A DNA stretch of 64,000 nt, from positions 124,001 to 188,000 of the forward strand of contig JAHBUW010000008.1 of assembly GCA_019637875.1 (NCBI GenBank), given 5' to 3'. Each line of letters begins with the position of its first letter. Position 1 is the stretch's first letter. The notes beneath the pieces are model-generated. The model did no database searches. It had not been told where the DNA came from and was given only the letters and a program-made list of their open reading frames with translations. Position numbers and translations under genes: made by a program. Source of the DNA: Pseudobdellovibrionaceae bacterium (lineage in GTDB: Bacteria > Bdellovibrionota > Bdellovibrionia > Bdellovibrionales > Bdellovibrionaceae). This document shows positions 6,187-10,903 of the stretch, piece after piece.

Positions 6187-9100
6187 CTACCACGCCTTGG
6201 CGAGTGAATCCACACTCAGTTTTTGCGCGGGCAGACCCTTGTTCACTTTCAGGTCCGCAAGTTCGATGTCGGTGCCGCGCTTATTTCTGAGATTGCGGAT
6301 CGCCATCTTTGTGGGGCGAATGACGTGACCCACTTTTTTGTAGCCGCTGAACTGAATCGTTTTCGCTTTCACGCCCTTCACGAAGTAGTCGAGCTGCATC
6401 GGCAAGTCTTTGCCGGGAAGGATCCACACCTGGACCTTCTCGTAGGGGCTTTTGCCGGAGGGTAGAGTGGCTTCCAGCACGTCGTGCTTTTTGCCGTTCA
6501 GCTCCTGCTGGCCCAGAAGTTTCACTTCGGTTTCGCGGATGACCGACGGATTGAAATCCTCGTAACGGAGCTCCGACCCCAGGACGCCGCCTTCCGAAGA
6601 TTCGGCCGCGACGACTTTGCGCACCTGTTTGGACGAGGGCAGGTAGACCCACTGGTTTTCGTCCTCTTTGGTGACGATGGAAAGAAGGCTTGTGCCTTTC
6701 AAATCCGAGGGGGCGGTGATGCGGGCGAGCATGCGCTGTTCGCTCTTGCCGCCGGTGCGCTGGATCTCGATCTCGCGCACGAGTTTCGATCCGTCGGTTT
6801 CAAGGATCGTGAGTTTCACTTTCGCCGATTCATCTTTGGATTCGAACTGTTTGAGCGCTTTCTGGAAGCGAACTTTCAGGTCCGCCTGCGCGTGCGCGAG
6901 GGGGCTGGCCGCGAAGATCAGGGCGAAAAGAAGAAGGGATGCGGCGCGATTCAGATCGACAGACATATCGGGTCTCCGGACGGGTTGAGGGGACGGATTC
7001 AAAACGGGAAGGACGGGTGCCGTGGGGGCTTCGGCCACGGGCTTCTTTTCCAGGCCGAGTAGGCCCGGCTTCCACGCGAGCAGCGCCGGCAGGAAGACCA
7101 AGTCTCCCATCACGCCCGCGAGGATCGACACCAACATGAAGGCGCCGAAGCTTTGGTTCACCGAAAACTCCGCGAACAAGAAGACCGCGAATCCCGCAAC
7201 CACCACCAAGGTCGAGTGCAAGCAGTTCACGATCTCTTTCTGGAAGACGTGCTCAAGGAGTCGGACTTTGCGCCCCTTTTTGATCAAAAGCTGAAGGCGG
7301 TCGAAGACATAGACCGTATTGTTGAAGGCGAGTCCCAGTGAAATCGAGAAGATCAACGCGAGCGGGGGTTTGATCGGCGTTTGGAGTAAAGCCATCATGC
7401 CGAGCAAAATCGCGGGCGAGATCAGGTTTGGCAAACACGCCACGAGCGCCCAGCGCACCGAGCGGAAGACGGGGACCAAGATCAAAAAGATGGCGGGCAT
7501 CGCCTCCCAGAATCCGAAGATCAGTCGACCCGAAACGCGGTTGTTGGTGGCGTGCAGATGATTCGCCATGCCGGTCGCCGACACCGTCACTTCCGGAAAG
7601 TCCGCTTGCAGTTCGCGGTCGATGCGGTGAACGAGGGCCGTCATTTCGGGGCCGGGGATGTCGCGGACCTTCACTTGTAAACGCAGGCTTTTCCCGTCGG
7701 GGGAAAGGAAGGGTTTCAGCGGGCTGGGGCCGGACAGCGTGTACAGGAACATGAGCTCCGAAACGCCCGCCGAAGTTTTCGGGAAACGGTTTTCGCCGAA
7801 GGCCTTCAGGAAATCCACCAGGCTCAGCACCTGGCCCACGCCCGCGGTCTCGCGTAAACTTTGAACCCGGTCGTCCAAACGCTCGAGATTCTTGGGATCC
7901 TTCCAGAAACTTTCGGACTTCGCGGTCAACTCCACGTTCAGCGGAATCACGCCCCCGAAGTTTTGGTCGATCGTTTCCGTCGTCACGCGGCTTGCGTGAC
8001 CGGCGGGCAGATCGTCGAAGACGCGGGTGTGCCAGTTCAGGCCCAGCGCGCCGAGCGACGCGATCACGGTGAGCGCGCCGATGCCCAGGACTAGCGGTTT
8101 GTGGTGGCGCATGACGATCAAGGTCAGGCGCGCGCGGAACTGGGTCCAGGCGCGCGGTACGGGCTCGGGGGAAAGAAGGGTCAGCGGCGGCAGGATCAAG
8201 GACGCCATGATCCAGCTGATCATGATGGTCGAGCCGACGACGACTCCGTACTGCGAGATCATCGGGATGTCGGAAGGCACGAGCGTCGCGAAGCCCACCG
8301 CGGTGGTCAGGTTCGCCAGGAAGTTCGGGAAGAGCAGCTCGCGTTGAACGGCGAGGTGTTTCCGCCAGTCTTCGTGGCTTCGCTCGTGCAAACGGAAGAA
8401 GGTGTGCACCAGCTGCGCCATCACCGTCACGGTCACCATGATCGGGACGGTGACCGTCAGAACAGTCAAATCCACGCCGAGCAGCGTGAGCGACCCCAGC
8501 ACCACGACGTTGGAAACGACGACCGTGATGAGCGAAACCAGAACGGGCGCAATGCCGCGAAAGAGCGCGAAGATCAAAAGAAAGGTCGCGAGGAAACTGA
8601 AACCCACGAAACGGAAAAGCTCGTTTTCGAGCAGCGATTGGAAGCCCGCCTGGATCGCGGGGATGCCGCCGATCTGAACGACGGCGCCCGGGAAGGCCGC
8701 TTCGACCTCTTCATGGGCGCGCGCGAAGACCGCTTTCATCTTGGGGATGTCGGTGGTGGTGAGCTCGATGTAGACCAGCGCCGATTTCTGATCGGGCGAC
8801 AGCAGCAGCGGGGTCATCAGCGAGTCGTTCTGAAAACGTCGCTCCCAGTCTTTCGCGGGAACGATGTCGGTCAAAAGGCCCGCCTGAATGGACTCGTCGC
8901 CGATTTCGGCGCCGGGGCGATTGGCGAAGCTCATGACGGTCGCGACGCCCTCGACGTCTTTGAGCGCGGCGCCGACCTCGCGAAGTTTGCGCGCGGCTTC
9001 GAGGTCGATCCAAGTGCGGCCTGCGGGGCGGGTGACGATCACCGCCAGCGCGGGATCCTCGCTGAGTTGGTATTTTTCGCGCACCTTTTGTGCGGTTTCG

Positions 9101-9270
9101 AGTGTGGGATCGCCTTTTGGCAAAAACTGTTCAAGGTCGTAGACGGTTTTCGTCTTGAGCATCGGCGACGCCATCAGTGCGGTCAGCAGAAACAGCGAGA
9201 CGAGCGCGAAAGCGGACAACCGCTTGACGTTTTTCTCGGAGATTTTCGGATCGCGACCGGGCTGAGACAT
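6187..9270 (-). CDS. RND (MMPL-type) exporter fused in frame to LolA-like periplasmic protein
   Basis: One open frame of 1027 residues. Residues 1 to about 730 are an RND-superfamily transporter: a helix near residue 20, a large periplasmic loop, a helix cluster, a second loop and a last cluster. A Pro-rich linker follows, then from residue 769 a segment like a complete signal-peptide protein of the outer-membrane lipoprotein-sorting (LolA-like) group. These two families are usually adjacent separate genes. Start 9270 has AAAGGA 10 nt upstream; the frame runs on to 9834 but there overlaps the divergent gene. An internal ATG at 6966 has CGGAG 7 nt upstream, so the second protein may also be made separately. 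The likely role is moving lipids or lipoproteins toward the outer membrane. Confidence 0.85.
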   Translation of the reverse strand: MSQPGRDPKISEKNVKRLSAFALVSLFLLTALMASPMLKTKTVYDLEQFLPKGDPTLETAQKVREKYQLSEDPALAVIVTRPAGRTWIDLEAARKLREVGAALKDVEGVATVMSFANRPGAEIGDESIQAGLLTDIVPAKDWERRFQNDSLMTPLLLSPDQKSALVYIELTTTDIPKMKAVFARAHEEVEAAFPGAVVQIGGIPAIQAGFQSLLENELFRFVGFSFLATFLLIFALFRGIAPVLVSLITVVVSNVVVLGSLTLLGVDLTVLTVTVPIMVTVTVMAQLVHTFFRLHERSHEDWRKHLAVQRELLFPNFLANLTTAVGFATLVPSDIPMISQYGVVVGSTIMISWIMASLILPPLTLLSPEPVPRAWTQFRARLTLIVMRHHKPLVLGIGALTVIASLGALGLNWHTRVFDDLPAGHASRVTTETIDQNFGGVIPLNVELTAKSESFWKDPKNLERLDDRVQSLRETAGVGQVLSLVDFLKAFGENRFPKTSAGVSELMFLYTLSGPSPLKPFLSPDGKSLRLQVKVRDIPGPEMTALVHRIDRELQADFPEVTVSATGMANHLHATNNRVSGRLIFGFWEAMPAIFLILVPVFRSVRWALVACLPNLISPAILLGMMALLQTPIKPPLALIFSISLGLAFNNTVYVFDRLQLLIKKGRKVRLLEHVFQKEIVNCLHSTLVVVAGFAVFLFAEFSVNQSFGAFMLVSILAGVMGDLVFLPALLAWKPGLLGLEKKPVAEAPTAPVLPVLNPSPQPVRRPDMSVDLNRAASLLLFALIFAASPLAHAQADLKVRFQKALKQFESKDESAKVKLTILETDGSKLVREIEIQRTGGKSEQRMLARITAPSDLKGTSLLSIVTKEDENQWVYLPSSKQVRKVVAAESSEGGVLGSELRYEDFNPSVIRETEVKLLGQQELNGKKHDVLEATLPSGKSPYEKVQVWILPGKDLPMQLDYFVKGVKAKTIQFSGYKKVGHVIRPTKMAIRNLRNKRGTDIELADLKVNKGLPAQKLSVDSLAKAW
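6966..6982 (-). promoter_or_regulatory. Internal ribosome-binding site and start for LolA-like part
   Basis: On the minus strand CGGAG is followed by 7 nt and ATG at 6966. The ATG begins a classical signal peptide: hydrophobic LLLFALIFAA, then AHAQA as cleavage region. It is in frame with the upstream transporter, with no stop between. Confidence 0.5.
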
Positions 9271-9367: not shown

Positions 9368-10903
9368 ATGCTTTTCAAAGTCATTTCTCGAATGAAATTG
9401 GGCCTGATCAAAGTGATGACGAAGAAGTCATCTTTGCGCGTTTTCGCGCTCGCGGTGCTCACCATTTGTTCGACGCTTTCGGCGACTCCGGCGACCGCCG
9501 GAGTTTTGAAAACCGATCTGCAGTTGGTTTTGCCCAAATCCGAGATGGTCAATGAAGCCCTCAAACAAAAGGGCGCGCTGAAGTTTTCGCGCGAAAGTTT
9601 GACGTTTTCGAGCGAGTTCCCGGTCGAGCTGAAAAACATCGATCTGGATTTCGAATACCAGGTGAAGACCTTGAACCCCGGTTTGGGGGGCGCGTTCGCC
9701 ACCGAAGTGGAAGTGACGAAGGTGGTCGCGCGCGCGGCGTCCTTAAAGATCGACACCGTCTTGCAAGTCGAAGCGTCGGGAGTGAAGGCCAAGATTCCGA
9801 TCAAAGCCTTTTGCCAGGGCGTCACCATCCGCAATGAAAAGCCCGTTGTCTTTCAACTGAAGGGTCAAGTCCGCGAACTGCCGCGCTTGAGCTTGCAGCT
9901 GGAAGACGTGGACTGGGCGCACGTGGCGGGCGTTTGGAAACTTGAAACCGCCTCTTGCGAAGCCGCGCCCGGCTTCACCGCCTTTTTGAACGAGCAGCTC
10001 GCGAAGCTCTGGAGTGAATCGAAAGATTTGCCGGCTTACGTTTTCGAGGACGTGAACCGGGGGCTGGAAGAGTGGTTCGCGGGAACCTTGCGCGTCGAAA
10101 AAGAGGTGCCCGAGTTGTACAGCCACGTCACGCTGGAGGGAAAGACCTTCCAGGACGCGGGCGAGGCCTGGGTGTTCGGCATCGAAATGCGCGTGGACGC
10201 GAATCCGAACGAAAAGACTTTGTGCGCGACTTTGAAGGATGACGTCTATCTGCCCGCACACGGCCAAAAGCTGAGCGTCCGCACCGCTGAACTCTGGGCG
10301 AACGAAAAAGTCGTCGAGCTTTGGGGGCGTTGTCTGCACGAGCGGGGAAAGCTCAAACGCGAGGATCGCGGTCAAGAGATCGCGGGCTTCCGTAAACTCA
10401 TGTCGTCGCGGTTTCTACAGTTCTTCGTGTGGCAGGATCTGATGCGCTTTCCGAAGTCGACGGACTTTCACTTCATGACGTCCAGTTACGGCGCGCTGAG
10501 CTTGCGTCCGGTGGCGGCGAGTTCAGGCGTGAGTTATGCGCTTTCGACGCAGATCGCGAGCCGCATGCTTTACCCCGAGGCGGGGCGTTGGTCCTCTTAT
10601 ATGACCTTCTATACGCCGGTGTCTTTGGAGCTGGCGATGAGCGTAAAGAACTCGAAGCTGCGCATCGGGATGAAGGGCGCGCCCCGGACCGCGCTGAAGT
10701 ACCGGTTCGATGTGCCGGCAGGGCAGCTCTATAGTTCGAGCGTCGGTATCTCGACCATCGAATCGGAAGTGAAAGACTTCCTGGCTCAAGAGATTTTTGA
10801 AATCGAACTTCCGCAGCTGCAACTCGGCCCCGACATCGAAGTCGAGGCCGCAAATCTACGTCGTGAAAATCAAACTTTGAAGATGGGCCTGAAGCGTCGT
10901 TGA
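9368..10903 (+). CDS. Exported protein of unknown function
   Basis: The product has 511 residues. A long N-region with several Lys/Arg precedes a hydrophobic core (about 24-40) and a likely signal peptidase site after ATPATA (about residue 44). The mature part is rich in beta-forming stretches with alternating polar and hydrophobic residues, which suggests a periplasmic or outer-membrane-associated beta protein. I see no known motif. It is divergent from the RND/LolA-like gene, 97 bp apart, so they may share a control region. A start at a later Met (such as MKLGLIKVM or MTKKSSL) would give a shorter, more typical signal peptide. Confidence 0.7.
   Translation: MLFKVISRMKLGLIKVMTKKSSLRVFALAVLTICSTLSATPATAGVLKTDLQLVLPKSEMVNEALKQKGALKFSRESLTFSSEFPVELKNIDLDFEYQVKTLNPGLGGAFATEVEVTKVVARAASLKIDTVLQVEASGVKAKIPIKAFCQGVTIRNEKPVVFQLKGQVRELPRLSLQLEDVDWAHVAGVWKLETASCEAAPGFTAFLNEQLAKLWSESKDLPAYVFEDVNRGLEEWFAGTLRVEKEVPELYSHVTLEGKTFQDAGEAWVFGIEMRVDANPNEKTLCATLKDDVYLPAHGQKLSVRTAELWANEKVVELWGRCLHERGKLKREDRGQEIAGFRKLMSSRFLQFFVWQDLMRFPKSTDFHFMTSSYGALSLRPVAASSGVSYALSTQIASRMLYPEAGRWSSYMTFYTPVSLELAMSVKNSKLRIGMKGAPRTALKYRFDVPAGQLYSSSVGISTIESEVKDFLAQEIFEIELPQLQLGPDIEVEAANLRRENQTLKMGLKRR

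Follow-up and report, generated by a model that had tools for sequence, protein, structure and literature searches.

Does a gene that joins an RND transporter to a LolA-like carrier in one reading frame produce a tethered carrier, a free carrier or both, and what might the joined parts do together? The question is raised by a gene on the minus strand (6187..9270) of the window, a stretch of 64,000 nucleotides from contig JAHBUW010000008.1 of a Pseudobdellovibrionaceae bacterium. Pairs of RND and LolA-fold proteins are widespread and poorly explained, and the titles and abstract beginnings of CC-licensed PMC literature yielded no report of an RND-LolA fusion or of a module of RND, LolA-like and BPI-like proteins.

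Domain architecture of the fused gene

The initial annotation had described an RND exporter and a LolA-like protein in one frame, and this description is borne out: the frame is open from an ATG at 9270 to a stop at 6187 (1027 aa), and the translation matches two Pfam families well above their cut-offs, MMPL (PF03176; E 3.3e-36, 125.3 bits, cut-off 20.5) and, at the C-terminus, LolA_like (PF17131; E 2.5e-36, 125.5 bits, cut-off 30, rising to 129.5 bits for the LolA-like part alone). No other protein of the source genome matches PF17131 at E <= 0.001. An AlphaFold2 model built on a 45-row alignment (pLDDT 85.2) has twelve long helices and two large periplasmic loops in the RND part (residues 1-738, 7057..9270), and a folded C-terminal domain. 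The LolA-like domain (residues 844-1023, 6202..6741) has solved relatives in 3bk5 and 9tp6, and may be a carrier of lipoproteins or lipids. PDB 9tp6, a recent entry under the title outer membrane lipoprotein-sorting protein, matches the carrier at E 9e-16. One relative (L056:6259-7623) encodes a second LolA-like protein, extended at its N-terminus by 220 residues; the extension begins like a lipoprotein signal and, by eye, resembles a coiled coil.

The RND part scores 130.5 bits against TIGR00921, the NCBIfam HAE3 subfamily, versus a cut-off of 351.9, and is therefore assigned to the MMPL type rather than to HAE3 proper. Positions 285/286 in TM4 and 650 in TM10 are those that we take to hold the acidic residues of the RND proton relay. 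Aspartate or glutamate is missing from 285/286 in all 68 orthologues; at position 650, asparagine is found in 44/68 and an acidic residue in 13/68, while all 16 paralogues have aspartate. The fusion of the window resembles most of the orthologues, with asparagine at 650 (TM10, 7279-7368) and no acid at 285/286 (TM4, 8383-8457). If the relay positions are as presumed, the missing acids would speak against a plain proton pump.

Between the two parts, in order, are a linker, an in-frame ATG (6964..6966) from which a free form of 259 aa might be made, a short hydrophobic stretch (core 6910..6945), the motif SPLAHA, and Q. The second part had been credited with its own signal peptide and a CGGAG site, and the sequence agrees: the segment past the inner ATG reads like a signal peptide (LLLFALIFAASPLAHA, then Q), and CGGAG, a possible ribosome-binding site, is located at 6974..6978, with GGAG ending 7 nt before ATG 6966. 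The motif suggests, by eye, a possible signal peptidase cut after SPLAHA at residue 794 (6888..6889).

Conservation and origin of the fusion

The fusion protein is matched at E <= 1e-20 in 68 of 140 genomes of the order. Once flanking sequences had been fetched, 53 ORFs of the order, that of the window included, were found to have both parts in one frame, among them at least two (L089 and L112) that are cut by contig ends; L118 is also cut and fell below the length limit. Eight further fused orthologues are present elsewhere in the phylum. With 53 fused ORFs in the order, a sequencing error or a chance open frame is ruled out, and the comparison of gene structure in relatives that had been recommended as a check reveals a true, conserved fusion. 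A natural fusion also implies that its RND and LolA-like parts act together. The statement that such partners are usually separate genes applies outside the phylum. Within this order it does not: there the orthologue group is fused as a rule, although some relatives have separate genes (L046/L047, L048, L050, L053, L110 and L117).

On a tree of 65 RND sequences, the fused or split state changes four times versus 11.1 times when labels are shuffled, L114 being counted as split although its contig ends inside the gene. With outgroups added, the orthologues form one clade of 44 rows (39 fused and five split), and other fusions are scattered among split rows elsewhere on the tree. Over the 88 rows of this tree, from which 26 loci were omitted as near-duplicates or cut, in which one row has too few columns, and whose root is for drawing only, the label changes ten times, seven of these changes being forced by starred branches. 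Of 20 places fetched from among the fusions listed outside the order, 19 proved to be fused and one split.

Outside the phylum, RND and PF17131 genes are mostly separate but side by side in the same order (L220-L249), and in 11 of 22 such pairs only one stop codon interrupts a frame that the two share, so that loss of a stop would be an easy road to fusion. The start of the carrier itself would then remain within the fused gene. These same-frame pairs (L220, L223, L229, L232-L234, L241-L243, L245 and L248) are a layout that invites repeated fusion or readthrough. A plasmid search returned no record covering 80% of the query.

The junction segment

A hydrophobic segment is kept in 53/53 junctions of the order. 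The initial annotation had offered two options, the first being a true fusion in which a 13th helix holds the LolA-like domain at the pump. If only the joined protein is made, this segment would be that helix; in keeping with such a view, the frame stays open through linkers that range from a few to about 70 residues, as if joining itself were selected, and positive charges lie on the cytoplasmic side of the segment in most fusions. The hydrophobic length, however, has a median of 15, compared with 20-21 for TM1, TM3 and TM11 (TM9 likewise has 15), the segment has a signal-like, alanine-rich ending, and the model gives it low confidence: nearly all of residues 744-797 fall under pLDDT 50, and the one helix there (776-784) is short. 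A strictly joined protein is also at odds with the relatives that have the parts on separate genes and with the inner Shine-Dalgarno (SD) site that is fixed in the genus holding B. bacteriovorus (see below). The 13th helix therefore found no positive support, and a protein that exists in joined form only is unlikely.

The segment in every fusion would equally suit a polyprotein of which the long form alone is translated, with signal peptidase cutting at the junction and the inner ATG surviving as a relic of a separate gene. A-x-A occurs in 29 of the 53 c-regions versus 20.1 +- 2.9 in shuffled ones, a weak control because high scores are likewise obtained for the flanks of TM7 and TM9. With a narrower span, the motif is found in 11/21 fusions of the B. 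bacteriovorus genus versus 5.7 shuffled (11 of 2000 shuffles as high), and outside that genus it does not rise above shuffled c-regions. Among fusions without any inner start, 19/21 have [AVSGT]-x-A, as a polyprotein would require, but this is not above the shuffles (16.6; 225 of 2000 as high). Cleavage between the RND and LolA-like parts is plausible, and could act together with inner initiation; as the sole source of free carrier it is rather unlikely, for a relic would not hold two SD codons fixed in a genus.

A candidate internal start site

Of the 53 junctions in the order, 37 contain an ATG, preceded in 31 cases by an SD match of at least 4 nt. The 20 junctions without any kind of start codon bearing such a match mean that a free form made through an inner start cannot be general. 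The genus of B. bacteriovorus, which contributes 22 fusions, is different in this respect: all of its fusions except L090 have an SD site before the junction ATG, consisting of AAGGAG 6 nt upstream in 19, AAGGA in one and GGAG in one. The codons of the site are nearly invariant (AAG for 20/20 lysines, GAG in 20/21, ATG in 21/21), against a gene-wide background for invariant columns of 149/525 AAG and 126/336 GAG. Only 10 of 158 two-fold columns are at least 95% fixed in this genus, and of 38 adjacent pairs of such columns, the pair at the SD site is the only one fixed in both members. Matches of at least 6 nt occur at 19/24 junction ATGs in the genus and 3/20 in other fusions, compared with 3/424 and 2/691, respectively, at in-frame ATGs elsewhere in the genes. 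Depletion of internal SD sites from coding regions has been reported (PMC5100845), and N-terminal proteoforms form an established class (PMC11005335).

This pattern of codon use indicates that a putative internal ribosome-binding site is under synonymous constraint in the B. bacteriovorus genus. Instead of marking a start, the fixed AAGGAG might delay ribosomes on their way from the last RND helix to the secreted domain, and its location just past that helix would suit such a role; a pause, though, would not need the invariant ATG 6-7 nt downstream, which makes this explanation very improbable. Among the 19 fusions outside the order, AAGGAG precedes the junction ATG by 5-6 nt in L150, L156, L158, L159 and L160 and precedes a junction GTG in L153, while L151, L152, L154 and L155 have no junction site of this type; in L167, the automatic choice of junction took TM12 for the hydrophobic core. 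Some lineages keep the candidate inner start under constraint, and others do not have it.

The inner site of the window, GGAG 7 nt before ATG 6966, is weaker than those of the B. bacteriovorus genus, and the match by itself means little because 73 of 691 other in-frame ATGs in the 32 fusions outside that genus also have an SD match of at least 4 nt. Open mRNA was considered as additional evidence: in the genus, the surroundings of the inner start show no unusual openness (mean z 0.28), and there is some indication of it in the window (z 1.59). Inner initiation in the window fusion is suggestive only. In the five rows inspected out of 21 from the B. bacteriovorus genus, the n-region of the free form has no lysine or arginine before the hydrophobic core, which counts against efficient secretion of that form. 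The second option of the initial annotation, that both fused and free forms are made, appears to be the better of the two: the constrained SD site and its enrichment at the junction lend it real support in one genus, although the site of the window is weak and the 20 junctions without a site speak against it elsewhere. A constrained inner start in B. bacteriovorus, which is culturable and genetically tractable, makes it directly testable whether the carrier is attached, free or both.

A linked gene for a predicted BPI/CETP-like protein

A feature missed by the initial annotation is the linkage of the fusion to a gene on the plus strand (9368..10903, 511 aa) with no Pfam match above cut-off. 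The model of its product (39 rows, pLDDT 84.4) matches BPI (Foldseek E 1e-15), LBP and CETP, and comparison by VIA gives Z 17.4 against BPI (420 residues aligned, rmsd 6.7) and Z 17.0 against CETP (422 residues aligned, rmsd 5.1); fold-search rows below these top families carry no conclusion. The neighbour is predicted to be a periplasmic protein with the full-length, two-domain BPI/CETP-like (TULIP) lipid-transfer fold. Its Cys149 and Cys197 are invariant in the 39 rows and could form a disulfide. Several start codons are candidates for this gene, the third ATG (9416) giving the most compact signal peptide.

A gene of this kind is found next to 55 of the 61 fused orthologues, divergently in 49, upstream on the same strand in five and downstream on the same strand in one; three of the six remaining loci have less than 70 bp of 5' flank. 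It is present in 59/62 genomes with the RND part and in 4/78 without, counts that are uncorrected for kinship. Adjacency that is kept while the arrangement changes is strong evidence of a shared task. One of the four genomes without the RND part is that of L055 (72% complete); there, no RND ORF separates the BPI-like gene from a LolA-like ORF with 59% identity in the LolA-like domain, for which a GTG preceded by a 5-nt SD match is a possible start.

A lycopene cyclase gene (PF05834, 5019-6176, minus strand) starts 11 nt past the stop of the fusion. Among the loci scanned, a relative of this cyclase is found beside the fusion or LolA-like gene only in the window and in L055, and carotenoids are therefore not taken as the general cargo.

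A possible route for envelope lipids

From the fusion and its conservation, the constrained site in one genus, and the linkage and predicted fold of the neighbour, we infer a scheme for inner start use, cleavage, cargo and direction of transfer. A single frame would encode both an inner-membrane RND transporter and its periplasmic LolA-like lipid carrier. Translation from 9270 would yield the joined protein, with its linker in the cytoplasm; the signal-peptide-like segment would direct export of the LolA-like domain, which in the periplasm may stay attached or be cut after SPLAHA. Some ribosomes may restart inside the gene, at ATG 6966 or at the much stronger site of Bdellovibrio, and thereby supply extra free carrier. 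On the periplasmic side of the inner membrane, the RND part would move or present hydrophobic cargo, a lipid or another compound, which the LolA-like carrier would accept; the next recipient would probably be the BPI/CETP-like protein, on the way to the outer membrane. Folds and linkage suggest this hand-over.

Such a three-part envelope lipid route, its LolA-like carrier made both attached and free, has in our judgement an even chance of being correct. The larger proposition, of a distinct lipid-transfer route in the envelope of predatory bacteria and their kin, with an RND part mostly devoid of the proton relay, a carrier both tethered and free by virtue of a held inner start, and a dedicated BPI/CETP-like next carrier, is tentative and on balance doubtful. 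The linked BPI/CETP-like protein nonetheless offers a concrete next carrier and ties the RND/LolA pair to periplasmic lipid traffic, a step that is open for most bacteria.

Comparison with known systems

Mycobacterial MmpL transporters pair with LolA-fold lipoproteins that are encoded separately. They resemble the RND part as lipid exporters of the RND type, and the structures of MmpL4 and MmpL5 match its profile, but their partners are separate lipoproteins. FbcH of Bradyrhizobium, a precursor of cytochromes b and c1, is a polyprotein cut by signal peptidase. Like the fusion, it joins a polytopic membrane protein to a secreted partner in one frame by an internal signal sequence; in the fusion, however, cleavage is only putative, and part of the family has a conserved inner start.

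In AmeABCD of Castellaniella defragrans, an HAE3-type RND protein works with a DUF1329 protein, a periplasmic member of the LolA superfamily, much as the two parts of the fusion may do. The genes are separate there, the system also includes one outer-membrane protein and another periplasmic one, and the available sections of the report describe no fusion, inner start or BPI-like partner (PMC6394551). A LolA-like protein also occurs in a cluster of Borrelia, there paired with an ABC exporter (PMC13078400). DUF4403, described as a full-length bacterial homologue of BPI, and other bacterial TULIPs are, like the neighbour, bacterial proteins for which a two-domain BPI-like fold is predicted (PMC6791001); DUF4403 is not among the Pfam matches listed for the neighbour at E up to 1, and Bdellovibrio does not appear in the available sections of that paper. 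The RND and PF17131 pairs of other phyla (L220-L249) differ from the fusion in being separate genes whose flanks gave no match to the BPI-like profile; what they have in common with it is the pair of families and its gene order, and often also a shared frame that one stop codon interrupts.
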